Of a stretch of DNA of 64,000 nucleotides, positions 10,199 to 40,672 are shown in pieces. Location of the stretch: contig NZ_VEEP01000012.1 in NCBI RefSeq assembly GCF_007678455.1, forward strand, positions 62,001-126,000. Reading direction: 5' to 3'. Numbering within the stretch: position 1 is the first letter of the stretch; each line of letters begins with the position of its first letter. The notes beneath the pieces are model-generated. The model was not told the DNA's origin, ran no database searches, and was given only the letters and a program-made list of their open reading frames with translations. The position numbers were made by a program, and so were the translations under genes. Source of the DNA: Cytobacillus oceanisediminis 2691 (GTDB lineage Bacteria; Bacillota; Bacilli; Bacillales; Cytobacillaceae).

Positions 10199-10860
10199 TG
10201 CTAGAATCTCCTAGGTGACCTGATAATTCATTTTTGGGAATAAAGGTGTTCCATTAAGCCCTATTGGCAACCTAATAATCCAGTTTCTAGGAAACCATGG
10301 TTCCAATAAGCTCTATTGGTGACCCAATAATCCAGTTACTGGTAAAAAGAAGCTCCAATAAGCTCTATTGGTGCCCTTATAATCCAGTTACTGGTAAATT
10401 GGTGTTTCAATAAGCCGTATTGGTGACCTGATAATCCAATTAGTGGAAAAATGAGGTTCCAATAAGCCCTATTGGTGACCTGATAATCCAGTTAGTGGAA
10501 ATACGGTGTTCCAATAAGGCCTTTTGGGGACATAATAATCCAGTTTGTGGAAATACAGAGTTCCAATATGCCCTATTGGTGACCTAATAATCCAGTTACT
10601 GGTAAACCAAGGTTCCAATAAGCCATATTGGCGACCTGATAATCCAGTTACTGGTAAACCAACACTTCAATAAGCCCTATTGGTGGCCTTATAATCCAGT
10701 TAATGGTAAACCAGGGTTCCAATTAGCCCTATTGACGACCTCATAATCCTGTTACTGGTAAATCAAGGTTCCAATAAACCCTATTAGTGACTTGATAATC
10801 CTGTTACTGGTAAACCAACACTCCAATAAGCCCTATTGGCTAACCAAAAATAGTGACTTC
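10199..10860. repeat. Tandem array of 52-bp units, about 12 copies
   Basis: The unit anchored on CCAATAAG recurs at 10251, 10303, 10355, 10407, 10459, 10511, 10563, 10615, 10667, 10719, 10771 and 10823, exactly 52 bases apart, with a decayed copy before the first. Each unit carries a short dyad CCAATA-agccc-TATTGG and a second one, CCAGT-t-ACTGG, followed by a 10-base variable stretch. The array fills nearly all of the 738-base gap between the R2lox and aldehyde dehydrogenase genes. No open frame of note crosses it. Copies diverge by substitution but keep the period. Function unknown. Confidence 0.97.
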
Positions 10861-10931
10861 TTCAATGACTTAGCTATTCACTAACTAGTTTTTTAATAAA
10901 TTTATATAAAACCCAATAAGGAGGGCACAAG

Positions 10932-12461
10932 ATGACTGTAAATGTCGATGTAAAAACGTTTCCGTTATTCATTAATGGAAAGTGGGAGGCTGCAAGCACC
11001 CAGGAAACCTTTGATGTCTTTAATCCAGCTACCGGGGAATTGGTGGCACGTGTGGCAAAAGGAAATGCAGAGGATGTGGACAGAGCAGTAGAGGCGGCAA
11101 GGAAGGCATTCGATGAAACCGATTGGAAGGGAATGAAGCCAAAGGAAAGGTCGAAAGTGTTGTACGCCATTTCTTATCAGATTGCTGCACATGCTGAAGA
11201 ACTTGCTTACCTTGAAGCTATCAGCTCGGGCGGTACCGTTAGGAGGATTGGGGCAAACGACATTCTGCAAATGGTTGACTTGTTCCAAACATTGGCCAAG
11301 TTTGTGGAAGAGTATCCATTTTCGGAAACGCTTCCAAGTCCGCCGTTCCCTGGGCCGGCTCACAATTTTATCTGGCGCGAGCCAATCGGGGTTTGCGCGG
11401 CGATCACTCCGTGGAATCTCCCGATGATGATTGCGACCTGGAAAATCGCACCGGCTTTGGCGATGGGCAACACAATTGTGATCAAGCCTGCGAGCTATAC
11501 TCCATTATCGACCCTGAAACTTGCTGAAATCATTTCCCAGGTAGTGCCTCCAGGAGTCATAAATGTTGTGACCGGACCAGGTGCCGAAGTTGGGGAAACG
11601 CTGGCAAGCCATCCAAAGGTCGATAAGGTTGCTTTTACAGGGTCGACTGAAGCCGGACGCAAGGTAATGCAGTTAGCCGCAGGCACAGTTAAAAATACAA
11701 CACTTGAGCTAGGCGGGAAATCTCCAAACATCATCCTTGAAGATGCCGACTTAAGCATCGCCCTGCCTGGAAGTTTATTTGGGGTGTTCCTGCATTCCGG
11801 GCAGCTATGTGAATCAGGGACAAGGTTATTTGTGCCTGACCATTTACATGATGTGATTGTGGAAAATCTCGTAAAGCTGGCTGGCAAAATCAAGCTTGGC
11901 AATCCGCTTGATCCAGCTACTGATGTTGGTCCAATCATTTCAAAGAAGCAAAAAGAAACCATCTTATCCTATATCGAAGCGGGCAAAGCCGAGGGTGCAA
12001 CGCTCGTCTGCGGCGGTAAGGAACAAAAAGTGGCCGGCTGCGAAAATGGCCACTTCATCGAACCGACGATTTTCACGAATGTCACAAATGATATGAAAAT
12101 CGCCCGGGAGGAAATCTTCGGACCTGTACTGTCTGTTATTCGATACACTGATTTGGATGATGCCATCAGGATGGCAAATGACTCTATCTATGGGCTTGCT
12201 GCCGGTGTATGGACCCAAGATGTCAATAAAGCATATGACGTTGCACGCAAGCTGCAGGCTGGTGTTGTCTGGATCAACGACTGGCATATGCTGCGCAATG
12301 ATGCACCATTTGGCGGCTACAAACAAAGCGGAATCGGCCGTGAGATGGGGAAGCATTCACTTGATGCCTATACTCAGGTCAAGCATGTCCATACTTCGAT
12401 GGTACCGGAAGTTCATAAGCGTTCCTGGTATGGCTTGCTGCTTTCCGACAGTGCTGAATAA
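10932..12461 (+). CDS. NAD(P)-dependent aldehyde dehydrogenase
   Basis: A 509-residue aldehyde dehydrogenase that oxidises an aldehyde to the acid. Cofactor and substrate motifs are intact: PWNLPMM, the Rossmann turn FTGSTEAGR, the general-base segment LELGGKSPN and the catalytic Cys in SGQLCESGTR. An AAGGAGGG site precedes ATG 10932. It is 23 bases from an iron-type alcohol dehydrogenase gene, so the pair probably takes an alcohol through aldehyde to acid, feeding the acyl-CoA ligases. The leader contains the end of the 52-bp array, which may influence its expression. Substrate unknown. Confidence 0.95.
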   Translation: MTVNVDVKTFPLFINGKWEAASTQETFDVFNPATGELVARVAKGNAEDVDRAVEAARKAFDETDWKGMKPKERSKVLYAISYQIAAHAEELAYLEAISSGGTVRRIGANDILQMVDLFQTLAKFVEEYPFSETLPSPPFPGPAHNFIWREPIGVCAAITPWNLPMMIATWKIAPALAMGNTIVIKPASYTPLSTLKLAEIISQVVPPGVINVVTGPGAEVGETLASHPKVDKVAFTGSTEAGRKVMQLAAGTVKNTTLELGGKSPNIILEDADLSIALPGSLFGVFLHSGQLCESGTRLFVPDHLHDVIVENLVKLAGKIKLGNPLDPATDVGPIISKKQKETILSYIEAGKAEGATLVCGGKEQKVAGCENGHFIEPTIFTNVTNDMKIAREEIFGPVLSVIRYTDLDDAIRMANDSIYGLAAGVWTQDVNKAYDVARKLQAGVVWINDWHMLRNDAPFGGYKQSGIGREMGKHSLDAYTQVKHVHTSMVPEVHKRSWYGLLLSDSAE

Positions 12462-12484
12462 AAAAAAATAATGAGGTGAAAAGG

Positions 12485-13699
12485 ATGCAAAGTACAACAT
12501 TATCTCAATTCTCGCTCCGCTCAGCAATATACAGCGGCTCAAATTCAAGGGCAATGGTGCCTGATTTGTTTAAGGGATTAGGTGCAAAAAGGGTGGTTCT
12601 TTTTAGCGACAGGGGCCTTGAAAAAGCAGGAGTAGTCGAAAAAGTTGCCCAGATTTTTGAATTGACGTCCAAAGGCATGGGTCCTGAATTAGCTGGTATT
12701 TATGTGGATATTGCTCAGGACGCAGAAAGCAGTTCAGTGAATGAGGCACTACGCTATGCAAGGGAAGTTGGTGCGGATGGCTTGCTTGCTGTTGGAGGCG
12801 GAAGCGTACTTGACACGGTCAAAGGCGTAAAATACGCCATGCATAAAGGATTGACCGACATAAAGGAAGCCATACCCGGAGGCTTTTTATATGAGCAATT
12901 CCCGAAAGCAACCCATATTCCGATCCCGCATATTGCAGTACCAACTACTGCTGGTACAGGTTCAGAAGTCTCGCCGATCGCGGTCATATACAATGAGGAT
13001 ATCCAAATGAAAGGAAATATCATCAATCCTTTCATCAGCGCGGACATAGCCGTGCTGGATCCGGACCTTACAGTAGGTCTGCCGCCGGCAATCACCGCGT
13101 TCACAGGCTTCGATGCACTGACACACGCAATTGAAGCCCTGGCATCGCCAAATGCAAATGCACTTACTGATGCACATGCATTGCACGCAATCAGGCTGAT
13201 TGAAAAGAATCTCCCTGTTGCCGTATCTGAAGGCTCTAACCTTAATGCAAGAATGGAAATGCTGCAGGCGAGCCTAATGGGAATTACCGCGTTCAGCTTT
13301 TCATTGAATGCGATCCCGGTCCATAACTTTGCACATGCATATGGCGCACTCTTCAGGATTCCGCATGGCCTGGCGAATGCTGTTTTCCTTCCTGTCGTCA
13401 TGGAACTTGTACCAAGCCTGTACCTTCCGAAGGTAAAAGAACTGGCATCTGCCTTGCGTGTTTCATGCAATGAAGACGATGACAATGAGACCGTACTGCA
13501 AAAAGTCGTTGAAAAGATTCGAGTCCTTCAGCACAAAACTGGCTTGCCGTCAGATTTTGCACAGTATCGTTTAACGGAGGAGGACCTGGAGAAGGTTGCC
13601 GGAGCTGTAGCGAAAGACCCTGCAGCAGTTTCTTTCCCGTTGCCGAAGGAACTGATTCAGGCTGTCGGCCAGCAGGTTGTGCCGATTGGCGTAAAGTAA
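12485..13699 (+). CDS. Iron-containing alcohol dehydrogenase
   Basis: A 404-residue member of the Fe-dependent (group III) alcohol dehydrogenases. The glycine-rich GGGSVLDTVKG and the metal-binding region with FDALTHAIEA and VHNFAHAYGA plus HGLANAVFLP are present. It interconverts an alcohol and its aldehyde or ketone with NAD(H). ATG 12485 is chosen because GAGGTG at 12473-12478 is six bases away; the GTG at 12476 overlaps that site. It likely works with the aldehyde dehydrogenase directly upstream. A palindromic repeat follows before the next gene. Confidence 0.93.
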   Translation: MQSTTLSQFSLRSAIYSGSNSRAMVPDLFKGLGAKRVVLFSDRGLEKAGVVEKVAQIFELTSKGMGPELAGIYVDIAQDAESSSVNEALRYAREVGADGLLAVGGGSVLDTVKGVKYAMHKGLTDIKEAIPGGFLYEQFPKATHIPIPHIAVPTTAGTGSEVSPIAVIYNEDIQMKGNIINPFISADIAVLDPDLTVGLPPAITAFTGFDALTHAIEALASPNANALTDAHALHAIRLIEKNLPVAVSEGSNLNARMEMLQASLMGITAFSFSLNAIPVHNFAHAYGALFRIPHGLANAVFLPVVMELVPSLYLPKVKELASALRVSCNEDDDNETVLQKVVEKIRVLQHKTGLPSDFAQYRLTEEDLEKVAGAVAKDPAAVSFPLPKELIQAVGQQVVPIGVK

Positions 13700-13716
13700 A
13701 AATATAATTTAAAAAA

Positions 13717-13838
13717 ATGTCTAGCTTCAGCGCCTAGCCCCTCGAGTCGTTTCGGTCCGCTTAATAAACTCAAAGAACGACTTCACCGGTCGGCCCTCTA
13801 ACGCTTGTCGGGGCTGACCAGGCGCTTAACGCTTTTCT
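13717..13838. repeat. Complex palindromic intergenic repeat
   Basis: About 120 bases with nested dyads: AGCGCCT-AGCCCC (13729-13741) against GGGGCT-gacc-AGGCGCT (13810-13826), and an inner pair AGTCGTTTC / GAACGACT. It is much richer in GC than its surroundings and lies between the alcohol dehydrogenase and an acyl-CoA dehydrogenase. It resembles a dispersed repeat I recognise from other Bacillaceae intergenic regions. No clear target duplication was found. It may act as a transcript-end or stability element. Confidence 0.7.
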
Positions 13839-13854
13839 TAAGGAGTGATCATCA

Positions 13855-15072
13855 ATGATGAATTTTGAATTTACAGATGAACAAGAGTTGTTAAGGAAAA
13901 CGGTCAGGAATTTTGTTGACAGGGAAATCATGCCTTATATTAAAGAATGGGATGAAAAGCAGCACTTTGAGAGTAATATTCTGACAAGGCTTGCGGATCT
14001 TGGCCTCATGGGAGTCTGCATACCGGAACAATATGGCGGCAGCGGGATGGATTATAATTCACTGGCAATTGTGTGTGAAGAACTTGAGCGCGGGGATACT
14101 GCCTTCAGGACCGCAGTCTCCGTTCACACTGGCCTAAACAGTATGACTCTCCTGCAATGGGGAAATGAAGAGCAAAAACAGAAGTATTTAGTTCCTCAGT
14201 CAAAAGGGGAAAAGGTAGGGGCTTTTGGATTGACCGAGCCGAATGCAGGTTCGGACGTTGCGGCAATGCAGACAACAGCCGCTGACGCGGGGGATCACTA
14301 TATTCTGAATGGGTCAAAAACCTGGATTTCATTATGTGATGTTGCTGACCATTTCCTCGTATTTGGGTATACGGATAAAAGCAAAAAACACCATGGCATA
14401 TCGGCCTTCATCGTGGAGAGAAACTGGGAGGGCTTCTCCTCCAAGGCTATAAAAGGGAAGCTTGGAATCAGGGCCGGGAATACCGGCGAAATCTTTTTTG
14501 ACAATGTAAAGGTTCCTAAACAAAACCTTCTGGGCAAAGAAGGTGACGGCTTTAAAATCGCGATGTCCGCCCTGGATAATGGCCGTTTCACCGTGGCCGC
14601 AGGTGCGTGCGGAACGATTATGGCAAGTCTTGAAGCAAGCTTGAAGTATTGTCATGAAAGAAGTACATTCGGCAAGGAAATTGGCAGGCATCAGCTCTTC
14701 CAGCAGATGATCGCGAAGATGGAAGCGGGGCTGATACAATCACGCTTGCTCGTGTACCGGGCAGGCTGGCTTAAAAATCAGGGCAAACGGAATACCCGTG
14801 AAACCTCACTGGCCAAATGGCAGGCATGCGACTATGCTTATGAAGCAGCAAATGATGCCGTACAAATCCATGGGGCCTACGGTTTCTCAAACGAATATCC
14901 TGTCGAACGATATTTGCGGAACGCAAAAGCGCCGGTGATCTATGAAGGAACACGGGAAATCCATACGGTTATGCAAGCGGAATATGCGCTAGGCTATCGA
15001 GTTGATAAACCACTTTCGAATATGCTCCCGGCATGGCCTTTTGAGTCGGTATCAGAAGAAATCATGAAATAA
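13855..15072 (+). CDS. Acyl-CoA dehydrogenase
   Basis: A 405-residue FAD flavoenzyme with the full ACAD layout: N-terminal helical domain, the FAD/substrate motif GAFGLTEPNAGSD (about residues 122-134), a beta domain, and the C-terminal helical domain with QIHGAYGFSNEYPVERY and YEGTREIH containing the catalytic-base glutamate. It introduces a 2,3 double bond into an acyl-CoA and passes electrons to ETF. ATG 13855 follows AAGGAG at 13840-13845. It stands alone after the palindromic repeat and is closed by a strong terminator. Chain specificity cannot be read from the sequence. Confidence 0.94.
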   Translation: MMNFEFTDEQELLRKTVRNFVDREIMPYIKEWDEKQHFESNILTRLADLGLMGVCIPEQYGGSGMDYNSLAIVCEELERGDTAFRTAVSVHTGLNSMTLLQWGNEEQKQKYLVPQSKGEKVGAFGLTEPNAGSDVAAMQTTAADAGDHYILNGSKTWISLCDVADHFLVFGYTDKSKKHHGISAFIVERNWEGFSSKAIKGKLGIRAGNTGEIFFDNVKVPKQNLLGKEGDGFKIAMSALDNGRFTVAAGACGTIMASLEASLKYCHERSTFGKEIGRHQLFQQMIAKMEAGLIQSRLLVYRAGWLKNQGKRNTRETSLAKWQACDYAYEAANDAVQIHGAYGFSNEYPVERYLRNAKAPVIYEGTREIHTVMQAEYALGYRVDKPLSNMLPAWPFESVSEEIMK

Positions 15073-15100
15073 AATAAAGTGACACCACCAAGCTAAGAAA

Positions 15101-15143
15101 AAAAAGGGAGATGTGCTTCAATACTGAAGAGCATCTCCTTTTT
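15101..15143 (+). terminator. Rho-independent terminator
   Basis: A-rich lead, stem GGGAGATGTGCTTCA pairing with TGAAGAGCATCTCC around a four-base loop, then TTTTT. It ends the acyl-CoA dehydrogenase transcript. The adjoining sequence TTACAATT is the left target duplication of the MITE-like element. Confidence 0.85.
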
Positions 15144-15340
15144 ACAATTGGCTGTTTTCGTAAAGATTGTTGTTAAAATCTTAAAGCCGATTTTAACGGG
15201 CTATAAGCAATTTTGCAGTTCGTTTTTAAGTGGGCAAGCTCTTTTCTCATAATAAGCTTGAATTTTATAAAGAAAACTAGGTCATTCAATCCAATTTAGT
15301 AGTCAATAGCAACAAAGTTTGAGAAAAGAGCCTTACAATT
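15142..15340. mobile_element. MITE-like element, 183 bp, with 8-bp target duplication
   Basis: The element spans 15150-15332. Its ends are imperfect inverted repeats of 26 bases beginning GGCT (15150-15175 and 15307-15332), 20 of 26 positions matching. TTACAATT is present on both sides (15142-15149 and 15333-15340) as an exact 8-bp direct repeat. Inside there is a perfect 9-bp hairpin (GTTAAAATC / GATTTTAAC, 15172-15197) and GCTCTTTTCTCA (15238-15249), which repeats in inverted form in the right end. There is no coding capacity. GGCTCTTT-type ends and 8-bp duplications fit ISL3-family transposases, so it is probably a non-autonomous derivative. The right duplication overlaps the M42 stop codon. 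Confidence 0.8.
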
Positions 15341-16388
15341 ATAAGACCATTTCAGATTGCACATAGTGATAAAGCAGCTTAGCTGTATTTTCAATAGAAT
15401 CTTTATGTGTTCTTTCAAATGCGTGTGAGGAATCGATTCCGGGACCAATAAGACCGTGGATAATATCGTGTCCTGAACGGATTGCGGCTGAAGCGTCCGA
15501 TCCGTAAAACGGATAGATATCGAGTTTGTAGCCGATTCCATTGTCAATGGCCAGTTGTGTCAGCCTTTTTCTAAGTTCATAATGATAAGGGCCGCTCGCA
15601 TCCTTCACACAAATGGAAACCGTGTATTCATCGGTAGATTGGCCATCACCCATCGCCCCCATATCCACCGCCAGGTACTCGACTGTTTCCGGCGTGATAT
15701 TCGAATTGCCTCCATAGCCGATTTCTTCATTATTTGAAATCAGGAAATGAGTCGTATATGGCAATTCGATGTTTTCACTTTTCATTTGTTTGATTAGCTG
15801 AAGCAGGATCGCTACGCTTGCTTTATCATCCAGATGACGCGATTTAATATATCCGGACGGTGTTAGCTGTACACGAGGATCAAAAGAAACAAAATCTCCA
15901 ACCTCGATGCCAAGTGCTCTCACATCATCAGCGTTATGTACTTTTTCATCGACTCGCACTTCCATATTATCCTGATTGCGCTCAGCTTTCCCGGCATCCT
16001 TATAGACATGTACGGAGGTTTGGTGCATCAAAATTGTTCCCGTGAACTTTTTGCCGCTTGAAGTTTCAATCTCGCAATATTCGCCCTCGATGGAGTTGTA
16101 CTTAAAGCCGCCGATTAAATCAAGCTTAAGGCGTCCGCTTGGCTTAATTTCTTTTACGATGGCTCCAAGAGTATCGACGTGGGCAGTCAGCATCCTATGA
16201 TTTTGCTGATCTTTACCTGGCAAGCTAGCAGTCAACCCGCCCTTGCGGTTTCTTTTTGTTTCTACCTGCAATTCCTTTAAATAATTCTCTACATATGTAA
16301 TCACTTCATTGGTATTTCCTGAAGGACTCGGGATGCTGACCAGTTCCTTTAACAGATTCACCGTCTCATCCGTATTTGGGTATGCCAT
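15339..16388 (-). CDS. M42 family metallopeptidase (glutamyl aminopeptidase type)
   Basis: A 349-residue dinuclear-zinc aminopeptidase. Ligand motifs are present in order: AHVDTLG, SRHLDDKAS, NNEEIGYGG with the catalytic Glu, VDMGA and SSHAFERTH. It should remove N-terminal residues from peptides in the cytoplasm. GGGAGGAAT precedes the ATG at 16388. The gene is transcribed against its neighbours, and its stop codon lies in the target duplication of a MITE-like insertion, so its original downstream sequence has been displaced without damage to the coding region. Confidence 0.94.
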   Translation of the reverse strand: MAYPNTDETVNLLKELVSIPSPSGNTNEVITYVENYLKELQVETKRNRKGGLTASLPGKDQQNHRMLTAHVDTLGAIVKEIKPSGRLKLDLIGGFKYNSIEGEYCEIETSSGKKFTGTILMHQTSVHVYKDAGKAERNQDNMEVRVDEKVHNADDVRALGIEVGDFVSFDPRVQLTPSGYIKSRHLDDKASVAILLQLIKQMKSENIELPYTTHFLISNNEEIGYGGNSNITPETVEYLAVDMGAMGDGQSTDEYTVSICVKDASGPYHYELRKRLTQLAIDNGIGYKLDIYPFYGSDASAAIRSGHDIIHGLIGPGIDSSHAFERTHKDSIENTAKLLYHYVQSEMVL

Positions 16389-16539
16389 AAATGAAATTCC
16401 TCCCTAAAATAAATTCTCACATAATTAATATTATAAGCTTTTTTCCCGAAGCAAAGTACCATTTATCTTTAATTCCTGTAATCCCTAAACCAGTCTGCTC
16501 ATATTTTGATTATGGATGTAGTTTTGGGGAGGCGATTAA

Positions 16540-17433
16540 ATGAACGGGTATTGGTTTAGGTATTCATTGCAGGAATGGTGCAGGGAAATGGAAGAGAAAT
16601 GGGACTCCGTTAAGGCTCAGCTTAGAGAATCTGGTGATCAAGACTCGTTAGAAAAATGGGAAGAAAACTTTTTCACCTTGAAAAAGAAAGCAGAAAGCAA
16701 CTTGGATGAGGAACAGATATATGCAGAAGCGAGAAAATTATTTGACGAACTTACAGATTATGCGAATGACCCTGAAATTGGCCGCCAGCAAGCGCAGAGA
16801 CTACAGCCGGTGCCAATAGGAGGTCACAAATTGCCGCCACTGCCTTATGCCTATAATGCGCTCGAGCCTGTGATCGATAGAGAGATCATGAGACTTCATC
16901 ACTTAAAGCATCACCAAAGCTATGTTGATGGCTTAAACAAAGCTGAAAAAGAAATGCAGAAAGCCAGGCAAACCGGTGATTTCTCTTTGATTAAACACTG
17001 GGAAAGGGAAGCAGCTTTCCACGGATCGGGACATTACCTCCACACGATTTTTTGGAACATTATGGTCCCGAACGGCGGGGGAGCTCCAAAGGGACAGCTT
17101 AGCAAAGCAATAAATGATACATTCGGCGGCTTTGAGGGCTTTAAAAAACATTTTACAGAAGCCGCTAAAAATGTCGAAGCTGTAGGGTGGTCCATCCTTG
17201 TCTGGTCTCCGCGTTCCCACCGCCTCGAAATTCTCCAGGCTGAAAAGCATCAAAATCTGACACAGTGGGATGTTATTCCACTTCTCGTTCTGGATGTTTG
17301 GGAGCACGCCTACTATCTGCAATATAAAAATGAACGGGCTAAATATGTTGAAAACTGGTGGAATGTCGTCAACTGGAAGGAAGTCGAGCAGCGGTTCAAT
17401 AAAGCCAGGACATTAGCCTGGCAGCCATTTTAG
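16540..17433 (+). CDS. Fe/Mn superoxide dismutase with N-terminal extension
   Basis: A 297-residue protein. The last 200 residues are a complete Fe/Mn superoxide dismutase: metal His in HHLKHHQSYVDG, second His in HGSGHYLHTIFWN, and DVWEHAYYLQY with the Asp and His ligands. About 95 extra N-terminal residues, charged and helical, precede it, as in the SodF proteins of Bacillus. It converts superoxide to oxygen and peroxide. ATG 16540 has GGGGAGG upstream. Its terminator is at 17434. There is no functional link to the surrounding catabolic genes except possible oxidase by-products. Confidence 0.93.
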   Translation: MNGYWFRYSLQEWCREMEEKWDSVKAQLRESGDQDSLEKWEENFFTLKKKAESNLDEEQIYAEARKLFDELTDYANDPEIGRQQAQRLQPVPIGGHKLPPLPYAYNALEPVIDREIMRLHHLKHHQSYVDGLNKAEKEMQKARQTGDFSLIKHWEREAAFHGSGHYLHTIFWNIMVPNGGGAPKGQLSKAINDTFGGFEGFKKHFTEAAKNVEAVGWSILVWSPRSHRLEILQAEKHQNLTQWDVIPLLVLDVWEHAYYLQYKNERAKYVENWWNVVNWKEVEQRFNKARTLAWQPF

Positions 17434-17461
17434 AAGAGTGACGGAATGTCACTCTTTTTTT
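17434..17461 (+). terminator. Rho-independent terminator
   Basis: AAGAGTGAC, loop GGAAT, GTCACTCTT, then a run of T. It ends the superoxide dismutase gene one base after its stop and lies upstream of the real start of the next small gene. Confidence 0.93.
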
Positions 17462-17850: not shown

Positions 17851-17869
17851 GTTTTCATTTATAAAAAAC

Positions 17870-20910: not shown

Positions 20911-21012
20911 GCATTTAGGAATATAAATCGATTTTAAGGAAAATAAGTTCATTTTTAAGGAATAAAAAGAAAAAGTCAGGAATAAATGATCAATTTTAAG
21001 GAATAAAATCAG
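20911..21012. repeat. Five short direct repeats spaced 20-21 bp
   Basis: The word TTTAAGGAATAAA or a close variant recurs with its GGA at 20918, 20938, 20959, 20979 and 21000, giving spacings of 20, 21, 20 and 21 bases. That is two turns of the DNA helix. The block lies between the hairpin at 20867 and the acyl-CoA dehydrogenase gene at 21104 and has no coding potential. It could be a set of phased protein-binding sites or phased A/T tracts causing a bend. Confidence 0.8.
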
Positions 21013-33391: not shown

Positions 33392-33481
33392 AACTGCTTC
33401 TTTCTTTTGGGGAGGTGGTTGGCTAGCAGTACAAATATCAATTTCTGAATATTGAAAATTCAAACTCAAGGGGGAAAACGA

Positions 33482-34681
33482 ATGAAAAAGTCCAAATTGC
33501 TGTTGGTCTTAAGTGTAATATTTGCCTTGATTTTCAGTCTAGCCGCTTGCAATAACTCAGAAAAAACAGATTCAGGAGGAAAGGGTTCTGAAGCAGCATC
33601 TGGTGAAGGGATAATCAATATTGGATATACTGGACCGCTGAGCGGACCTGCCGCGTTTTATGGAGAAAGGACATTGAACGGTGTCCAGATGGCAACTGAG
33701 GAAATCAACAATGCCGGCGGAATTGAAGTGAATGGCAAGAAGTATAAATTCAATGTTGTCTCCCTGGACGACAAGTATTTGCCTAATGAAGCCGGTGCGA
33801 ATGCTAAAAGACTCATGCAGGAAAATAAGACACCCATCATTTTCACACCGCATAGCGGCGGCGTGGCTGCTTTGCAGGTGTTCAACCAGCAGGATAAATT
33901 CATTATTGGCGCATACACAAGTGAACCAAAGGTAACGGAAGTCGGGAATAAATTAACGGTGAGGATCCCTCCTCGTTATGATGGCTATCTTGAGCCATTC
34001 ACGAATTATACGATGGAGAAGTTCGGCAAAAAAATCGCATTCCTGCCAACTTCATCTCAGTATGGAAAGGATTGGGCTGAAAAGCTGCAGCCTCACTGGG
34101 AAAAGTCAGGTGGTGAAGTGGTGTACAATTCATCAATCGACTTTGCCAAGGATACAGATTTCTTTACCATCATCACAAATGCACTAAAGGAAAAACCAGA
34201 TGTACTTTTTATCGGCGGACCGTCTGAACCAACTGCAAAAGTCGCCAAGCAGGCCAGGGAACTTGGCTTCAAGGGTGGTTTTATCGTGATGGACCAGGCA
34301 AAGTTCGATGAAATGAAGAAGGTGACAGGTACGTATGACGTCCTAAACGGCGCAATCGGTGTCATGCCGCTGGTCAATTCCGAAAGTCCCGGCATTCCCG
34401 AGTTTGTAAAGAACTACAATGCAAAATACAAAGAGGATCCAGGCTCTGAAGCTGGCTTGAATTACATTGCCATGCATGTTTTCGCTGAAGCCATAAAAGC
34501 AGCAGGGTCTGTGGATGACCCCGAAAAAATCATGGCCCATATGCAGGATGGGCTGGATAACCTGCCAGAGGACAAAAAAGTTTATGTCATTCCAAAAATC
34601 GACCCAAATGGCGGATTTGAAGGTGAATTGATTGTTGCGGCAATTGAGGATGGAAAAATCGTCCCGATAAAAGCTGATTAA
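33482..34681 (+). CDS. ABC transporter substrate-binding lipoprotein (periplasmic-binding type I, LivJ-like)
   Basis: A 399-residue protein with a lipoprotein signal: MKKSKLLLVLSVIFALIFSL then AAC as the lipobox cysteine, followed by a Ser/Gly-rich linker. The rest is a type I binding fold of the leucine-binding kind (IGYTGPLSGPAAFYGE at the start of the mature protein). ATG 33482 is preceded by an AAGGGGG site. It captures the solute outside the membrane for the LivHMGF complex. The solute is unknown; context points to an acid fed into the adjacent acyl-CoA ligase pathway. Confidence 0.92.
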   Translation: MKKSKLLLVLSVIFALIFSLAACNNSEKTDSGGKGSEAASGEGIINIGYTGPLSGPAAFYGERTLNGVQMATEEINNAGGIEVNGKKYKFNVVSLDDKYLPNEAGANAKRLMQENKTPIIFTPHSGGVAALQVFNQQDKFIIGAYTSEPKVTEVGNKLTVRIPPRYDGYLEPFTNYTMEKFGKKIAFLPTSSQYGKDWAEKLQPHWEKSGGEVVYNSSIDFAKDTDFFTIITNALKEKPDVLFIGGPSEPTAKVAKQARELGFKGGFIVMDQAKFDEMKKVTGTYDVLNGAIGVMPLVNSESPGIPEFVKNYNAKYKEDPGSEAGLNYIAMHVFAEAIKAAGSVDDPEKIMAHMQDGLDNLPEDKKVYVIPKIDPNGGFEGELIVAAIEDGKIVPIKAD

Positions 34682-34820
34682 TTTGCAGTAAGAAAAACAG
34701 ATACTTTTACGGGATAGCCGGGTAGAGTAGAAACAGATACTGGTTTTGCTATTCTAACAGTCTATACTTTTTAAAAAAGTTCAATGCTGATGTTTACTGT
34801 GAGGAAGTAATGAATGATGG

Positions 34821-34855
34821 AAGCGGCAGTTCGGATGAACTGCCGCTTTTTCGTT
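34821..34855 (+). terminator. Rho-independent terminator
   Basis: AAGCGGCAGTTC, loop GGAT, GAACTGCCGCTTTTT. It ends the 22307-34681 operon and lies inside the longer open frame of the next gene, which rules out the upstream start there. Confidence 0.93.
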
Positions 34856-34926
34856 GCTTTCATGTTTTCCGAAGACATACAATAAGAAATAAGAGTTCAC
34901 CAACGATTCCTAAAAGGAGTGGTAGC

Positions 34927-35730
34927 ATGAATAATAGCATCGGAATTGACGCGGGAGGATCACTTCTCAAAATTGCATATGAAGAAAATGGGAGATTGCA
35001 TTTTCGAAAACAGCCTAATTCAGAAATGGATGGAGCATTACAGTGGCTGAAAATCATTTCATTAAATAAGACAATTTATCTGACAGGCGGAAAGGCAGGA
35101 ACTATTAAAGCCAATTACTTCCCGGAGGCAAAGGTAGTAGATGAATTTTCGGCTGTATGCGAAGGCAGCAGGTACCTGAAAATGAAGGAAGCCATGTCTG
35201 TCAGTGATCCTTACATACTGGTCAACATCGGGACAGGCACTTCCTGGTTTACCATTGACGGGGAACAGTATGAGCGGGTTCTTGGCAGTGGAATTGGCGG
35301 CGGTACTTTTATGGGACTAGGTAAAATGTTTACTGAAGCTGATGCTTTTTCCGATCTGGTAAGTTTGGCTGCTGAGGGGGACAAGGGGAATGTTGACCTG
35401 CTCGTGAAGGATATTTATCATCCGGAAAAACCCCCGATTCATGGTGAATTAACAGCAAGCAATTTCGCGAAGTCACAAGGGATTACTTCAAGTTCTCCAG
35501 CCGACAAAATGGCTTCCCTTAACAATATGATTGCAGAAACGTTGACTCTTCTCACTGTCCAGGCTGCTAGTCTTCACAACATAAAGCAGGCTGTCTTTAT
35601 CGGAAGTACTCTTGCAGGAAATCAACTCCTCCGGGAAAATCTGGAGACGTATTGTAAAATGTCTGGAATTGATCCGGTTTTTCTGGAACATGGTGAGTTC
35701 AGCGGGGCGATCGGGGCAATGCTCACATAG
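34927..35730 (+). CDS. coaW: Type II pantothenate kinase
   Basis: A 267-residue acetate/sugar kinase-fold protein with GIDAGGSLLKIAYE (phosphate 1), NIGTGTSWF and GSGIGGGTFMGLG (phosphate 2) as in the staphylococcal CoaW, of the same length. It phosphorylates pantothenate, the first step to coenzyme A. Type II enzymes are not inhibited by CoA, which could be useful next to a CoA-hungry pathway; that link is inferred. AAAGGAG precedes ATG 34927. It forms its own unit between two terminators. Confidence 0.92.
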   Translation: MNNSIGIDAGGSLLKIAYEENGRLHFRKQPNSEMDGALQWLKIISLNKTIYLTGGKAGTIKANYFPEAKVVDEFSAVCEGSRYLKMKEAMSVSDPYILVNIGTGTSWFTIDGEQYERVLGSGIGGGTFMGLGKMFTEADAFSDLVSLAAEGDKGNVDLLVKDIYHPEKPPIHGELTASNFAKSQGITSSSPADKMASLNNMIAETLTLLTVQAASLHNIKQAVFIGSTLAGNQLLRENLETYCKMSGIDPVFLEHGEFSGAIGAMLT

Positions 35731-35734
35731 TGAC

Positions 35735-35772
35735 AAAAGAGGAGAAGCCACTTTGGCTCCTCCTCTTTTGTT
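35735..35772. terminator. Bidirectional terminator
   Basis: CAAAAGAGGAG-a-AGCCA, short loop, TGGCT-c-CTCCTCTTTTG. It lies between coaW (+) and the flavin oxidoreductase gene (-), with A and T runs on both sides, and can serve both. Confidence 0.88.
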
Positions 35773-35777
35773 GAATT

Positions 35778-36800
35778 TTATCTGTTTCCTTTAAATACTT
35801 CAGAGACAATTTCAAAGGATTTCAATCTGGCTTTGTGATCAAAAATTTGTGCGTTGATGATCATTTCATCTGCCTGAGTTTCATCAAGGAATTCCTGAAG
35901 CTTGGTTTTAATGGTCTGCGGGCCGCCAACAATCGAGGAACCGATCCGGCTGTCCAGCAGCATTTTTTCATATTCGCTGACCTGGTTATTAAAATCTTTT
36001 ACAGGCGGCAGCAGGGGACTAGGGTTATTCCTGAAAAGATTCAGGAATTGCTGCTGCATAGACGTGGCCAGAAAATCTGCTTCCTCATCCGTTTCGGCCG
36101 CAATCACATTTACGCCAACCATTGCATATGGCTGGTCTAATACTTCAGATGGCTGAAAATTCCTCCGGTATAGCTTGAGAGCTCCTAAAGTATTTTCGGG
36201 AGAGAAGTGGCTTGCGAATGAAAAAGGCAAGCCGAGTTGTCCTGCAAGCTGCGCGCTATAGCCACTTGATCCCAACAGCCAGATTGGAATGTTCAATCCC
36301 TCACCTGGAATGGCACGGACACTTCGAAATTGTGAATCAAGTTCCGGGTTGAAGTATGCTCGAAGTTCATCCAATTGCTCAGGAAAGTCCTGGCCATCAC
36401 TGCGTCGTTCGCGCCTTAAAGCATAGGCTGTCACCTGGTCGGTTCCAGGCGCGCGTCCGAGTCCGAGGTCAATCCGGCCCGGGAAGAGAGATTCAAGGGT
36501 CCCGAATTGTTCAGCAATTACTAGCGGAGCATGGTTTGGCAGCATGATACCGCCGGAGCCAACCCTGATCGTGGATGTTCCTGCTGCCACATGTCCGATG
36601 ACCACCGAAGTCGCAGAACTGGCAATTCCAGGCATATTATGATGTTCTGCCAGCCAGTAGCGGCGATATCCCCACTGTTCCGCATGCCTGGCAAGATCAA
36701 GCGTATTTTGAAGTGAATCTGAAGCTGTGCCTCCTTGAATGATTGGAGCAAGATCAAGCACAGAAAATTTAATATCGTTTAAACGTTTGCCGTCCGTCAT
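35778..36800 (-). CDS. LLM-class flavin-dependent oxidoreductase (luciferase-like)
   Basis: A 340-residue member of the bacterial luciferase family, single-domain type. The signatures [31 protein letters not shown] and [11 protein letters not shown] are intact, and the FMN-binding TIM-barrel pattern continues to [11 protein letters not shown]. It probably oxidises an organic substrate with reduced FMN and oxygen; the reductase partner is not adjacent, though a flavin reductase-family gene lies at 59461. A paralogue is at 48739. AAAGGAAG precedes the ATG. Confidence 0.93.
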
Positions 36801-36939
36801 AATTGCATCTTCCTTTATTGAATGATATTAACAGCCAGGAATAGCTTTTAACCATCCCCAGCGATTATACAATTCAATAGTAACAATTATCTTTCGGTAA
36901 TCAAAATAAAATGGTTTGAATCGACAGTTAGCCTGGCAG

Positions 36940-38259
36940 TTAATTAATGGAAGGCCGCTGGGTTACAAGGGAAGGATTTTCACTCCTGTGAGCGCTGCTG
37001 GATTCTCTAATGCTTGCTTCGATATTGACAAACTCCGGGTATCCGTAATTACCATGTTCACTGATGTCCAGTCCAATATTTTCTTCCTCTTCTGTAACTC
37101 GCAAGCCATTCATCGCGGTTTTCATTCCCAATAAAATGAGATAGGAAACAATGAAAGCAAAAGCACCCGAAACCAAAACCCCCAGTGCCTGCACACCCAG
37201 CTGGTCAAAACCTCCGCCATAAAATAAACCGGGTTTTCCGACGGTCGCCAATTCTGGAGTTGCGAAGAATCCAGTCGATAAGGTACCCCAAACTCCTGCT
37301 GCCCCGTGAACGGATAAAGCAAATATAGGGTCATCGATTTTTTTGCTTTCAAAAAACCTGATGCTGTAGAAGACGAGAATTCCGGCAACCAATCCAATCA
37401 CAACTGCTGCCCAGGTATCAACAAAGGCACAGGAAGCGGTGATTGCGACAAGGCCGGCAAGTGTTCCATTCAGCATCATCGGGATATCAGCCTTTCCCAT
37501 TACGATCCACGAAATAGCAAGTGCAGCAATGGTACCAGCCGCGGCTGCAAGATTAGTGTTCAGTGCCACGAATCCGAAAAATGCACCATCTACCGAAACC
37601 GTGCTGCCTGCATTGAAACCAAACCAGCCCACCCAAAGGAAGAGTACACTCAAGGCGGTGAATACGAGGTTATGGCCTTCAATTTTATTGGCCGAACCAT
37701 CTTGATTATATTTGCCTATACGAGGTTTCAGCAGGAGTGTAGCTGCCAGTGCGGCCATAGCACCTGTCAGGTGAACGACTGTCGAACCGGCAAAATCCTG
37801 TTTCCCATGCTCCGCAAGCCAGCCGCCACCCCAAATCCAGTGTGCAATAAACGGATAAACCAGGACGGAAAATAAAAGTGCGAAAACAACATATACAGAT
37901 AATTTCGCTCTTTCAGCAAACCCGCCAAAAGCAATCGTGATCGAAATGCCTGCGAAAGCCAGTTGAAATAGGAAGAAGACGGATCCTGAAAGGCCAAGCC
38001 CTTCAACATCATAGCCTGAATAAAAGAAATCCGAGAATCCTAAAATCGAATTTCCTTCACCGAAAATCAATCCATATCCTACAGCCCAGAAAACAATGGA
38101 GGAGATGCCGAATGTTAAAATCGTTTTACCTGCGATATGTCCAGCATTTTTCATCCTTGTTGAACCTGTTTCAAGTAAAATGAAACCCCCAATCATCAAA
38201 ATAACCAATACTGCAGAAATCATGACCCATAAACTATTCAATAAAAAAACAGTATCCAT
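36940..38259 (-). CDS. amt: Ammonium transporter
   Basis: A 439-residue AmtB/NrgA-type channel with eleven or so membrane segments. The twin-His pore residues are in STVVHLTGAMAAL and ALSVHGAAGVWGTL, with Asp in DFAGS beside the first. The C-terminal cytoplasmic tail contains the usual GLDISEHGNYGYPEF followed by about 24 extra polar residues. It conducts ammonium under nitrogen limitation. A perfect TnrA/GlnR box lies 69 bases upstream of its start and the tnrA gene is next to it. No PII gene (glnK/nrgB) accompanies it in this window. Confidence 0.95.
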   Translation of the reverse strand: MDTVFLLNSLWVMISAVLVILMIGGFILLETGSTRMKNAGHIAGKTILTFGISSIVFWAVGYGLIFGEGNSILGFSDFFYSGYDVEGLGLSGSVFFLFQLAFAGISITIAFGGFAERAKLSVYVVFALLFSVLVYPFIAHWIWGGGWLAEHGKQDFAGSTVVHLTGAMAALAATLLLKPRIGKYNQDGSANKIEGHNLVFTALSVLFLWVGWFGFNAGSTVSVDGAFFGFVALNTNLAAAAGTIAALAISWIVMGKADIPMMLNGTLAGLVAITASCAFVDTWAAVVIGLVAGILVFYSIRFFESKKIDDPIFALSVHGAAGVWGTLSTGFFATPELATVGKPGLFYGGGFDQLGVQALGVLVSGAFAFIVSYLILLGMKTAMNGLRVTEEEENIGLDISEHGNYGYPEFVNIEASIRESSSAHRSENPSLVTQRPSIN

Positions 38260-38327
38260 TTGCTCAACTCCCTTAATAGTGATGTTTTATGTATTTTGTC
38301 ATTTAATTCAGAATGAAACCACGTTTA

Positions 38328-38344
38328 TGTCAGGTAACCTCACA
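38328..38344. promoter_or_regulatory. TnrA/GlnR box upstream of amt
   Basis: TGTCAGGTAACCTCACA matches the TGTNA-N7-TNACA consensus exactly. It is between the tnrA terminator and amt, at an activator-like distance from the amt start, consistent with TnrA activation of ammonium uptake in low nitrogen. Confidence 0.88.
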
Positions 38345-38356
38345 TGGTTTTTGAGA

Positions 38357-38383
38357 CAAAAAAAAACCTTCTTTTACGAAGGT
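38357..38383 (-). terminator. Terminator of tnrA
   Basis: On the minus strand ACCTTC, loop, GAAGGT followed by a run of about nine T. It directly follows the tnrA stop. Confidence 0.88.
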
Positions 38384-38385
38384 CA

Positions 38386-38721
38386 TCATTTTTTTCGTAT
38401 ACCAAATCGGGCATTTATTTGTCCCTGGATCATTTTCTTATGTTCTTCTGCTTCATTTCGTTTCTTTTGCTTCACCATTTCCTGCCTGATTTCATACGTC
38501 TGTACGCCGTCTTCAATTTTATTGGCTATCTCTACCAATAATTCTACATCTGAAAACGAATATCTTCTGCTCCCGCCTGGAGTTCGATCAGGGAAAACTA
38601 ATTTTCTTTCTTCATAATATCTTATTTGCCGTTCTGAAAGTCCAGTTAGTTCACTAACAATCCCGATTGTAATGACTTTTTTGTCTTTATAGGAGGAATC
38701 GGCAGCCAGGAGGATCACCAC
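38386..38721 (-). CDS. tnrA: MerR-family nitrogen regulator TnrA
   Basis: A 111-residue protein nearly matching Bacillus Tnr[32 protein letters not shown] winged-helix, [24 protein letters not shown], and the C-terminal [13 protein letters not shown] tail that in Bacillus contacts feedback-inhibited glutamine synthetase. It activates nitrogen-scavenging genes when glutamine is low. The start is GTG 38721, since no ATG lies before the conserved region. It is next to amt, with TnrA boxes before both genes, implying autoregulation. Confidence 0.95.
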
Positions 38722-38733
38722 ACTTCTTTTTTA

Positions 38734-38750
38734 TGTTATATTTTCTCACA
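38734..38750. promoter_or_regulatory. TnrA box upstream of tnrA
   Basis: TGTTATATTTTCTCACA fits TGTNA-N7-TNACA on all conserved positions. It is 13 bases before the tnrA start, so it suggests autoregulation; this is closer than usual for activation and might instead repress. Confidence 0.8.
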
Positions 38751-38784
38751 TGATTTGATGTTTTGTAAATAAAAACTCGAAGAA

Positions 38785-38931
38785 CTAACGCCCAGTTGTT
38801 AAATTTTTCAGTTCTGTCAGTGTTAATTTCTTTAATTCATTTTCAGTATCATTCGAAAGCCCTGTTTTAATCAAATGCTGGATATAATGGTCTTTCAGTT
38901 TATCAACAGCTGTCCGTAAATGTAATGACAC
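38785..38931 (-). CDS. Small FbpA-like basic protein
   Basis: A 48-residue open frame starting at GTG 38931 after a GGGGG site. It contains AVDKLKDHYIQHLIKTGL and the C-terminal KLTLTELKNL, which fit the Fur-regulated basic protein A family (AVE..K..LI..LI..G and LTLSELE). FbpA proteins in Bacillus are small, iron-limitation-linked helpers. No convincing Fur box was found upstream. It follows the 47-residue gene by 12 bases. Recognition rests on a short motif, so confidence is moderate. Confidence 0.6.
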   Translation of the reverse strand: MSLHLRTAVDKLKDHYIQHLIKTGLSNDTENELKKLTLTELKNLTTGR

Positions 38932-38943
38932 AGAGAAACCCCC

Positions 38944-39087
38944 TTAAAAATAGTCATTTTGAACTTCACGCAGGATTTCTAAAGCCCGCATGCCTTCTTT
39001 TTTCAAAAGCTGCTCATACAGTTCATCGCGAAAAAGATCAACCATGACAATCAATTGCGCCAAACCCATTTCCTTCTGTCCGTCCAT
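38944..39087 (-). CDS. Small protein of unknown function (47 aa)
   Basis: A 47-residue frame starting at ATG 39087 with a GAGGAG site seven bases upstream. The sequence is amphipathic and helical (MDGQKEMGLAQLIVMVDLF..., then DELYEQLLKKEG...). I do not recognise a family. It is the first gene of a two-gene unit with the FbpA-like protein. The good ribosome site and tight spacing support that it is real. Confidence 0.55.
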   Translation of the reverse strand: MDGQKEMGLAQLIVMVDLFRDELYEQLLKKEGMRALEILREVQNDYF

Positions 39088-39255
39088 AGAAATCTCCTCA
39101 TTTCTTTTAATTAATTTGATTCATCTTAACGAATAACTTTTGTGCAGTCATTAAGTTCGGAAGGATATCTGACAGGGATTTTAACGGCATAAGTAATGAA
39201 TTGCGTGCGAACCGGAAAACCTATAATGATGATTTGTCCATAAGGAGGAGTAGTG

Positions 39256-40122
39256 ATGGAACAGAATACGCAGCCAAATAATAGAGGGTATATCATTAAT
39301 GAATATGATGTACTTAAGAAAGTCATTCTTTGCCAGCCACAATATATGACCATCCGCGATGTCATAAATGAAACCCAAAAACATTTTAAGGATGAAGGCA
39401 TACATATCGAAGTTGCCTTGGAGCAGCATCATGAATTTGTGAATACATTAAAGAATTACGGCGTAGAGGTCATCCTGCTCCCGTACCATAAAAAATTCCC
39501 GGAGCAAGTCTTCACAAGGGACATCGGATTTACACTTGGTGAAACTATTTTTGTAGCAGATATGGCCAGCGACGTCCGAAAGGGTGAGGAGGATGTCTTG
39601 AAACAGTGGCTAGAGGATGAAGAGATCTCCTATTATAATCTCCTGGGTGATCAGATCGAAGGTGGCGATGTAGTCATTGACCAGGACACCGTATATGTGG
39701 GCTTGAGCAATCGGACCAACCAGCAGGCGGCGGATCACCTTAAGGGATTGCTCCCGAACTTAAACGTGCGAGCTATTTCCTTCAAAGCTGAGTACCTTCA
39801 TCTTGATTGTGTTTTCAACGTCGTCTCACCTGAAGTAGCATTGATTTATCGCCCAGCATTGACAGACGAAGACATTGAACTATTCAGCTCCCGTTATGAC
39901 CTGATTGATGTCAGCGAAGAGGAACAATTTACACTTGGGACCAATGTCCTGAGCATTGGAAACAAACGGATCCTCAGTCTGCCTGTGAATAAAGGCGTGA
40001 ATGAGCAACTCAGGGGTAAAGGATTCGAAATAATCGAAGTCGATATTACTGAGATTATTAAATCCGGAGGCTCATTTCGCTGCTGCTCATTGCCCATTTT
40101 ACGTGAGAGGAATGTACATTAG
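39256..40122 (+). CDS. Arginine deiminase/DDAH-like amidinotransferase-fold hydrolase
   Basis: A 288-residue protein of the dimethylargininase/amidinotransferase superfamily, similar in build to Bacillus YkgA. Visible marks are FTRDIGFTLGE (substrate Asp), EGGDVVIDQDTVYVGLSNRTN, HLDCVFNVVS (catalytic His) and GGSFRCCSLP, with the nucleophilic Cys near the C terminus. It probably hydrolyses a guanidino-compound such as methylated arginine or arginine. ATG 39256 has AAGGAGGAG before it; the GTG at 39253 is too close. Exact substrate unknown. Confidence 0.87.
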   Translation: MEQNTQPNNRGYIINEYDVLKKVILCQPQYMTIRDVINETQKHFKDEGIHIEVALEQHHEFVNTLKNYGVEVILLPYHKKFPEQVFTRDIGFTLGETIFVADMASDVRKGEEDVLKQWLEDEEISYYNLLGDQIEGGDVVIDQDTVYVGLSNRTNQQAADHLKGLLPNLNVRAISFKAEYLHLDCVFNVVSPEVALIYRPALTDEDIELFSSRYDLIDVSEEEQFTLGTNVLSIGNKRILSLPVNKGVNEQLRGKGFEIIEVDITEIIKSGGSFRCCSLPILRERNVH

Positions 40123-40206
40123 TATTAATCCCCTAAGTTATGTTATGAGAAAATCACTCTGAAGCAGGTGGCAATCGTCATTTGCTTTTTTCATTTAAAA
40201 AAGGTA

Positions 40207-40672
40207 ACTTCGGACAGCTTTGGGGATTGCATGCGAAAGTTGTTCGAACTCAGACTACTTCGGACAACTTTTGTGGTCGCAGGTGAAAAGCTGTCCGAAC
40301 CTGAAGCTACTTCGGACAGCTTTCGTCGTCGCAGGGGAAAAGCTAGCCGAACTCGAGGCTACTTTGGACAGCTTTCGTGGTCACAGGTGAAAAGCTGTCC
40401 AAACTCCGGGCTACTTCGGACAACTTTTGTGGTCGCAGGTGAAAAGCTGTCCGAACTCGGAGCTACTTAGGACAACTTTGGTGCTCGCAAACCAAAAGCT
40501 GTCCGAACCGGGAACTACTTCGGACAGCTTTCGTCGTCGCCGGGGAAAAGCTGTCCGAACTCGGGGCTACTTCGGCCAGCTTTCATGCACGAAGATGAAA
40601 AGTTGTCCGAACTAAAGGTAACTTAAGATAACTATTATACCCGCAGATAAAAAGTTGACTAAATCGAACAAC
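40207..40672. repeat. Tandem array of 52-bp hairpin units, nine copies
   Basis: Units beginning ACTTCGGACAG recur at 40207, 40257, 40309, 40361, 40413, 40465, 40517, 40569 and 40621; all steps are 52 bases except the first, which is 50. Each unit contains a 13-bp inverted repeat, TTCGGACAGCTTT against AAAGCTGTCCGAA, around a 15-base loop, then an 8-base variable stretch. The last copy is decayed. Apparent open frames through it are by-products of the repeat, whose period is not a multiple of three. It lies between the DDAH-like and AGCS symporter genes; sequence unrelated to the array at 10199. Nothing else was recognised in 40123-40206 or, besides the promoter, in 40673-40856. Confidence 0.97.

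Follow-up and report, generated by a model that had tools for sequence, protein, structure and literature searches.

Two tandem arrays of 52-bp units, unrelated to each other in sequence, belong to a class of constant-length, variable-sequence repeats already described in Bacillus, and the units of this class show an oscillation of A/T versus G/C content with a 10.4-bp period (z about 7-8). The arrays lie in a window of 64,000 nt from the soil bacterium Cytobacillus oceanisediminis 2691 (NZ_VEEP01000012.1, positions 62,001-126,000, forward strand), the whole stretch of DNA that was analysed. The explanation that we prefer, to which we give a probability of roughly 0.45, is that they are members of this known class whose period would be kept by helical phasing, and that they may act as platforms for a DNA-wrapping or DNA-bending protein, with gyrase as a candidate. 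With a helical wave in the units, a length that was constant for no known reason becomes a physical claim open to test.

The arrays and the class to which they belong

The features considered here are collected in Table 1. In array 1, TRF delimits a core (10248-10839) of 11.4 copies with a period of 52 and 0% indels, and decayed copies, recognised by reading the sequence directly, extend back to about 10202. The unit contains two palindromic blocks, CCAATA..TATTGG and CCAGT.ACTGG, placed 26 bp apart from centre to centre. The core of array 2 (40207-40613) has 7.9 copies of the same period with 1% indels, also according to TRF, and decays to about 40672; in its units, the repeat search identified the inverted arms TTCGGACAGCTTT and AAAGCTGTCCGAA in alternation. 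The step from copy to copy is exactly 52 bp in both arrays (ungapped repeat search). The best circular identity between the two consensus units, on either strand, is 0.404 versus a mean of 0.397 for shuffled sequences, and 51% of the shuffles reach or exceed it; consequently, the consensus units are considered unrelated. TRF and the repeat search thus bear out the initial annotation, which had reported two unrelated arrays with a common 52-bp period, and its coordinates are correct within a few bases.

Table 1. Arrays and neighbouring genes in the window
Feature	Position	Strand	Basis or family
Array 1	10202..10850, including decayed copies	.	TRF and ungapped repeat search; outer limits by eye
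Array 2	40207..40672	.	TRF, repeat search and direct reading of the sequence; outer limit by eye
Weak 21-bp array	20917..21011	.	TRF (4.7 copies, 64% matches)
Gene before array 1	9300..10193	+	Ribonucleotide reductase small-chain family (Pfam PF00268)
Gene after array 1	10932..12461	+	Aldehyde dehydrogenase (Pfam PF00171)
Gene before array 2	39253..40122	+	DDAH / arginine deiminase family (Pfam PF19420, PF02274)
Gene after array 2	40857..42317	+	Sodium:alanine symporter family (Pfam PF01235)

Both arrays are non-coding spacers between genes, the one before array 1 presumably encoding an R2-like oxidase. The weak 21-bp array is possibly a member of a companion class with units of 20/21 bp, and no array was detected at the orthologous place in genome G006.

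A tabulation of the periods of other arrays in the organism, which the initial annotation had suggested as a check, rules out coincidence. We sampled this genome at even spacing in 40 stretches of 20 kb (800 kb in all) and counted arrays with a period of at least 10 and at least two copies. Of 61 tandem arrays, 22 had a period of 52-53, and a further 27 had one of 20-21 or 41-42; after local shuffling, the same sample yielded only three arrays (periods 18, 21 and 24), none of them near 52. In a 939-kb set from the organism's own genome, the window's contig included, periods of 51-53 accounted for 26 of 69 arrays; the figures were 26 of 52 in 700 kb from five other genomes of the genus and 4 of 29 in 640 kb from nine genomes belonging to other genera. 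When only periods of at least 25 are counted, these proportions become 26/35, 26/32 and 4/6, respectively. Arrays with a period of 52 or 53 were present in 8 of the 13 related genomes sampled.

The initial annotation knew of no described system, but the class is already in print: tandem repeats of 52 and of 20-21 nt with fixed length and varying sequence have been reported in Bacillus (Subirana & Messeguer 2021, PMC8161180), in a paper that lists 49 repeats of 51-53 nt for the sister species B. selenatarsenatis, of the same genus, and through which we know of an earlier one by the same authors on constant-length repeats (J Bacteriol 2020). As described in PMC8161180, those repeats share with the arrays studied here a length of 51-53, the coexistence of several unrelated families per genome, their non-coding nature, short motifs with their reverse within one unit, a copy number that varies from strain to strain and a companion class of 20-21 nt. 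With a 60% identity threshold, 75 units fall into 18-20 clusters, and short sequences with their reverse are found within one unit in both window arrays. Between conspecific genomes, array length was 592 vs 228 bp in one case (7 whole units) and 407 vs 614 bp in another (about 4), and two further 52-bp arrays on C33 showed no length change. Nothing contradicts membership in the class. Dyad symmetry of the whole unit was rejected as a universal feature, as it exceeds a z of 2 in only 35 of 67 units, some families being strongly symmetrical and others weakly.

According to PMC8161180, the function of these repeats and the reason for one exact length were left open in the papers that describe them; a protein that polymerises on DNA, with a role in the nucleoid, is proposed there, and an RNA-level role is also among the proposals. 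By contrast with the main text and tables of that paper, the present analysis contains the 10.4-bp A/T wave, substitutions that depend on it, the exchange of a 52-bp array for a 21-bp array or an empty site, and the position of the arrays relative to terminators.

A helical wave in base composition

The wave is A/T-specific. In 18 clusters of our own units, 0.101 of the A/T variance falls at 10.4 bp versus 0.039-0.042 in shuffled units (z 8.2 and 7.6). The published units, which come for the most part from other species, form 20 clusters and give a share of 0.104 (z 8.2); this set is not fully independent of ours, as its B. alkalitelluris and B. oceanisediminis units resemble the array 2 family and B. 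indicus is present in both. None of 2000 sets of intergenic 52-mers reached this strength, and z was 6.8 in own and published sets alike with shuffles that keep the symmetry. No more than 5 of the 18 own and 6 of the 20 published clusters have the 10.4-bp component as their strongest harmonic, and the two window units taken singly give p values of 0.04 and 0.19. When the own set is clustered at 52%, the effect rests on 4 clusters (z 2.8), and the wave of the 20/21-bp units stands out less from dinucleotide shuffles (z 2.5). This oscillation strengthens the link made by the initial annotation between 52 bp and five helical turns. Neither the literature searched nor PMC8161180, in its main text and tables, describes a helical wave inside such units.

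Substitutions depend on the wave as well. Flips between A/T and G/C are 1.41 times commoner at columns that disagree with it (36 of 51 arrays), with values of 0.92-1.08 for other harmonics, and substitutions that break the wave are the rarer ones. There are 27 substitutions per indel event in the arrays and 6 in the intergenic background, a ratio that is biased because TRF favours indel-poor arrays. Pairs of indels with a net length of zero were seen in 15 of 22 units with two indel bases, which are too few and too dependent on the alignment to be used.

A platform for a wrapping or bending protein

Under our preferred explanation, the period is probably set by helical phasing at the level of the DNA: it would be maintained to hold A/T-rich and G/C-rich patches on a constant side of the helix, the 52-bp unit corresponding to five turns of 10.4 bp and the 20/21-bp unit probably to two. 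The sequence of the unit would drift and be homogenised by unequal exchange, processes that would together lead to unrelated sequences with one period. The arrays would then serve as platforms on which DNA is wrapped or bent by a protein that recognises bendability instead of sequence, a candidate role to which we give slightly less than even odds. The filament-forming protein put forward by the initial annotation as a shared mechanism, or a wrapping one, is near to this reading and is a possible candidate. If phasing holds, a change of half a turn in the length of the unit should abolish function, while a new sequence that keeps the wave should not.

That the reader is DNA gyrase in particular is doubtful when taken by itself; gyrase is nevertheless the leading candidate because, in its published motif, a 36-bp centre is flanked by two 47-bp stretches whose G/C content is phased (Topo-Seq; PMC6379681, PMC12393610), and because the BIME-2 arrays of E. 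coli are gyrase sites (PMC6379681). As this motif is described, it shares with the arrays a degenerate sequence and a G/C variation phased at about 10 bp over roughly 47-bp stretches, which our units show at the population level (10.4 bp) and only weakly when considered singly. By contrast, the gyrase motif, which was defined in E. coli, carries a 36-bp centre between its phased parts. BIME-2/REP elements of E. coli also resemble the arrays in being intergenic, tandem and made of alternating inverted elements. A broader and more speculative proposal, which we would sooner doubt than accept, is that 52-bp and 20/21-bp arrays are a single kind of element selected for its mechanics and not for its sequence. 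Nothing but the length and the helically phased wave, which would make the DNA easy to wrap, would then be conserved, and such arrays would be the Gram-positive equivalent of BIME-2: putative sites between transcription units where gyrase, or some other protein that wraps DNA, could land. Were gyrase or another wrapping protein to read them, the arrays would serve these chromosomes as recurrent topological elements.

Alternative explanations

The period could also derive from descent without function, if one ancient 52-bp family had spread and drifted while unequal exchange preserved a length that was never selected. Related unit families do occur within and between genomes, two of them abut in locus L058, copy number changes by whole units, and arrays come and go at orthologous places, one of which is empty or carries either a 52-bp or a 21-bp array, depending on the genome. 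However, descent predicts neither the 10.4-bp wave and its replication nor the wave-dependent bias in substitutions, nor a second class at 20-21 bp, and we regard it as unlikely.

An equally unlikely explanation is that the arrays function as RNA, their transcripts forming rows of hairpins that would serve, for instance, as 3′ UTR elements, sponges for Hfq or other proteins, or small RNAs. The inverted arms of many units (the dyad symmetry given above) and the transcription of arrays in published RNA-seq data from B. coagulans (PMC8625621) agree with such a function, but compensatory changes in the arms are not in excess: in the 50 of 51 arrays with a usable stem, 18 doubly changed cells were observed vs 22.3 expected, 8 of them complementary. 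The purine-rich strand is not firmly tied to gene direction either (n=32; the sense strand is purine-rich in 14 cases, pyrimidine-rich in 7 and neutral in 11), and no Rfam family matches any array at gathering score in the eight sources searched of ten intended. The single Rfam hit was a TPP riboswitch in L068, located away from the array. Additionally, a role as RNA would not lead one to expect a helical A/T wave, and terminator-like sites ahead of the arrays are commoner than in controls; such a site separates the array from the stop codon in 16 of 30 convergent (controls 62/234) and 16 of 26 codirectional cases (controls 174/449). RNA structure was consequently rejected as the basis of the arrays, given the lack of compensatory excess, firm strand bias and Rfam match. 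An enrichment between convergent genes, suggested by 16 convergent and 9 divergent cases among 57 in a BLAST-enriched set, was discarded, as it was not significant in the stretches used for the counts of periods of 51-53 (13 vs 6, p 0.17).

It is more improbable still that a generator makes units of fixed length, be it a REP/RAYT-like transposase that reads structure or a replication-slippage machine that advances by 52 nt. Such a generator, which the initial annotation had also considered, would explain unrelated sequences with one length, and Y1 transposase matches are found in 18 of 21 genomes of the genus. Nevertheless, PF01797 (Y1) has no match in G016, G019 and G020, and arrays of the 52-bp class are present in G016 (in the same record as L105) and G020, so a transposase of this kind is not required. 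REPs are described as palindromes with a GTAG or CGTC tag associated with RAYT transposases (PMC3733652), while the arrays vary freely in sequence. Mobile carriers are likewise unsupported, as array 2 has no match in plasmids or phages and array 1 none in phages. Orthologous places show differences in copy number, replacement or absence of arrays. Finally, CRISPR loci are also regular repeats in intergenic DNA, but they carry unique spacers between repeats, whereas TRF and the repeat search show the whole 52-bp unit of the arrays running head to tail, and this identity was rejected.

The 52-bp period and its distribution

The initial annotation held that two arrays of the window are unrelated and still share a 52-bp period, which was confirmed: in an ungapped repeat search, copy-to-copy spacing is exactly 52 bp in both, in agreement with TRF (see the table), and the identity between their consensus units (0.404) is not above that of shuffles (0.397). 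Decayed copies extend out to approximately 10202 in array 1 and 40672 in array 2. Array 1 is flanked by a gene of the ribonucleotide reductase small chain family (R2-like oxidase) and one for an aldehyde dehydrogenase; array 2, by a DDAH/arginine deiminase family gene and a sodium:alanine symporter gene.

Coordinates of the arrays and of other features observed in the window, fetched loci (L) and genomes (G; G000 is the genome of the window)
Feature	Location	Strand	Description
Array 1	window 10248-10839		11.4 copies x 52 bp, 0% indels (TRF)
Array 2	window 40207-40613		7.9 copies x 52 bp, 1% indels (TRF)
Adjoining unit families	L058 1471-2268 (G000:C455:88059-88856)		two related families of equal period
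TPP riboswitch	L068 17205-17314	minus	reaches the gathering score
R2-like gene	G016:C33:350867-351757		internal TGA
R2-like gene	G014:C25:63273-64162		split, two matches

Among the BLAST relatives of either array in their own genome, the stronger ones are 52-53 bp arrays and a few of the weakest are not. A similarity-free sample of this genome (800 kb in 40 stretches of 20 kb at even spacing; arrays of period at least 10 and at least 2 copies) also has the peak at 52 that the annotation took as support for a common mechanism, with 22 of 61 arrays at 52-53 (21 at 52 and 1 at 53); of the others, 24 lie at 20-21, 3 at 41-42 and 12 elsewhere. The same sample shuffled in 200-base blocks gave 3 arrays, none near 52. 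Periods of 51-53 account for 26 of 52 arrays in 700 kb from five congeneric genomes (G003, G005, G008, G010 and G020) and for 4 of 29 in 640 kb from nine genomes of other genera. With 40-80 kb sampled per genome, a period of 52 or 53 is present in 8 of 13 genomes and was not seen in G030, G118, G143, G040 and G092. Around the R2-like gene, 79 fetched loci gave ten arrays at 52, two at 53, one at 51 and thirteen at 21, and those of 51-53 bp include ones from records named Mesobacillus, Neobacillus and Metabacillus. The 20/21-bp arrays match the 52-bp class in number in the 800-kb sample (L071, L069, L087 and L082 are examples from the same genome), and their cores include TATAGCGACTTT, TTCGACCAC and AACGGTT, among others.

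The shared period is not new, and the annotation's statement that no such system had been described does not hold, since PMC8161180 reports tandem repeats of constant length and variable sequence in 176 Bacillus genomes, 1886 with a length of 51-53 nt and 781 with one of 20-21 nt, with copy number differing between strains and short motifs accompanied by their reverse within one unit. For instance, B. selenatarsenatis (now Mesobacillus) carries 49 in the 51-53-nt range and 30 in the 20-21-nt range, which two close relatives share with it. The authors of that paper remark that 20-21 nt equals two helical turns, and propose a protein that polymerises on the DNA, a nucleoid role or small RNAs.

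Turnover at fixed sites

Array 1 spans 592 bp in the genome of the window and 228 bp in the conspecific G006 (seven units fewer), and array 2 spans 407 and 614 bp, respectively (four units more in G006, minus one base); two further 52-bp arrays, on contig C33, do not differ between the two genomes. Downstream of the R2-like gene, related 52-bp arrays are found in the window (10202-10850), L101 and L104, a 21-bp array stands just past position 10900 in L102, L105 and L173, and the intergenic gap is merely about 42 bp in L103 and L147. Both classes can therefore occupy one orthologous gene junction. A second site has approximately 20 units in L103, 9 in L105 and 3 in L104, with one unit in L173 and an arm remnant in L147 (by eye), and no array in the window or L101. 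As a consequence of these copy differences and of the 52-bp, 21-bp and empty states across relatives, it follows that arrays grow, shrink, vanish and alternate with the 21-bp class. The abutting families in L058 are likely an intermediate of unit turnover. In arrays such as those of L006, L049 and L058, higher-order periods corresponding to two and three units (104 and 156 bp) show that multi-unit blocks were amplified jointly.

A generator of 52-bp units had been suggested, but a REP-type transposase is not needed, as G016 (the L105 record) and G020 carry 52-bp-class arrays without a Y1 match. Separately, G006 has five scattered matches to the Y1 transposase that score equally and all have open frames of 161 residues; this kind has no match in the window's genome, which suggests a recent IS200-like burst in G006. 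The R2-like gene may be in decay in some relatives (see the table). The R2-like protein of L101 (JAGGQZ010000009.1, titled Chryseobacterium sp. ISL-80) is 98% identical; this record matches G012, placed in the window's genus, and its title looks misassigned.

A helix-phased A/T wave

Three observations bear on how the unit length is kept: a wave of A/T against G/C in step with the helix, substitutions that depend on this wave, and few indels. To measure the oscillation, consensus units were treated as circular, and the share of the A/T variance that falls on the fifth harmonic (10.4 bp) was taken. A first test with 20 cluster representatives gave z 6.0. The cluster-averaged share is 0.101 (75 units in 18 clusters at 60% identity); mononucleotide shuffles give 0.039 (z 8.2) and dinucleotide shuffles 0.042 (z 7.6), and harmonics 4 and 6 fall below background in these 52-bp clusters. 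In 23 of 27 published consensus units (20 clusters), a few of them kin of families in our set, the share is 0.104 (z 8.2 with both shuffles). None of 2000 draws of intergenic 52-mer sets from the same genome was as high. For each of the two sets z was still 6.8 with shuffles that preserve dyad symmetry, and with clustering at 52% identity it was 2.8 (4 clusters, present set) and 5.6 (15 clusters, published set). The signal lies in A/T versus G/C (z 7.3), is weak in purine/pyrimidine (2.5) and is absent from A/C versus G/T (-0.1). Units of 20/21 bp (38, in 15 clusters) have a weaker wave at 10-10.5 bp (share 0.204, z 4.5 and 2.5; 4 of 2000 intergenic sets equally high). By contrast, 10.4 bp is the strongest harmonic in just 5 of 18 present and 6 of 20 published clusters. 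Taken singly, the window units give p 0.04 and 0.19, although in both raw arrays the strongest A/T period within 6-30 bp is 10.4 bp.

Substitutions depend on the wave, which points to selection. The rate of A/T<->G/C flips is 0.072 per site at consensus positions in agreement with the wave and 0.102 at those in disagreement (ratio 1.41; same direction in 36 of 51 arrays), compared with ratios of 0.92-1.08 at harmonics 3, 4, 6, 7 and 8 and 1.12 for non-flipping substitutions at harmonic 5. When 51 arrays are aligned to their own consensus, there are 27 substitutions per indel event (3109 and 114), versus 6 (222 and 37) in intergenic DNA of C33 compared with G006, a contrast inflated by the preference of TRF for indel-poor arrays. 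Although descent without function accounts for related families and whole-unit copy changes, it leaves the wave and the wave-dependent substitutions unexplained.

Candidate readers and genomic placement

DNA that is wrapped or bent always in the same direction would be expected to have such a wave. As a candidate reader, DNA gyrase has a fit that is suggestive only, and HU- or Lrp-type proteins would fit equally well. The gyrase motif is described in PMC6379681 as 130 bp, with two 47-bp stretches of phased G/C flanking a 36-bp centre, its phasing being explained through minor grooves facing protein or solvent; gyrase sites are over-represented in BIME-2 elements according to the same paper, and some 48 bp of DNA wind around the GyrA pinwheel according to PMC12393610. 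The motif's 130 bp equal 2.5 units of 52 bp.

In the 52-bp class, whole-unit dyad symmetry exceeds z 2 in 35 of 67 units (mean 2.1), a set that includes arrays fetched by similarity to those of the window; in the 20-22-bp class it does so in 1 of 38. Where inverted elements recur in a periodic array, half a period separates the dyad axes, which in the 52-bp class is 26 bp (2.5 turns). A function at the RNA level is weakened on three counts, although such repeats are transcribed in B. coagulans according to PMC8625621. First, the arms do not covary (18 double-changed cells versus 22.3 expected, 8 of them complementary) and, because there is no compensatory excess, they are better seen as DNA features than as selected RNA hairpins. 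Second, there is no firm strand bias: the purine-rich strand is not clearly tied to gene direction (of 32, 14 are purine-rich on the sense strand, 7 pyrimidine-rich and 11 neutral). Third, arrays are often sited beyond terminators. With genes called by a custom longest-ORF rule, a simple terminator rule was satisfied in 32 of the 54 intervals that separate a stop codon from an array (controls, 245 of 697) and, after matching for orientation and length, in 16 of 30 convergent (controls, 62 of 234; p 0.005) and 16 of 26 codirectional cases (174 of 449; p 0.024). The genes flanking 47 arrays run in the same direction in 28 cases, converge in 13 and diverge in 6, the last two not differing significantly (p 0.17), and the median distance to the array is 73.5 bp from stop codons (n=54) and 145.5 bp from start codons (n=40).
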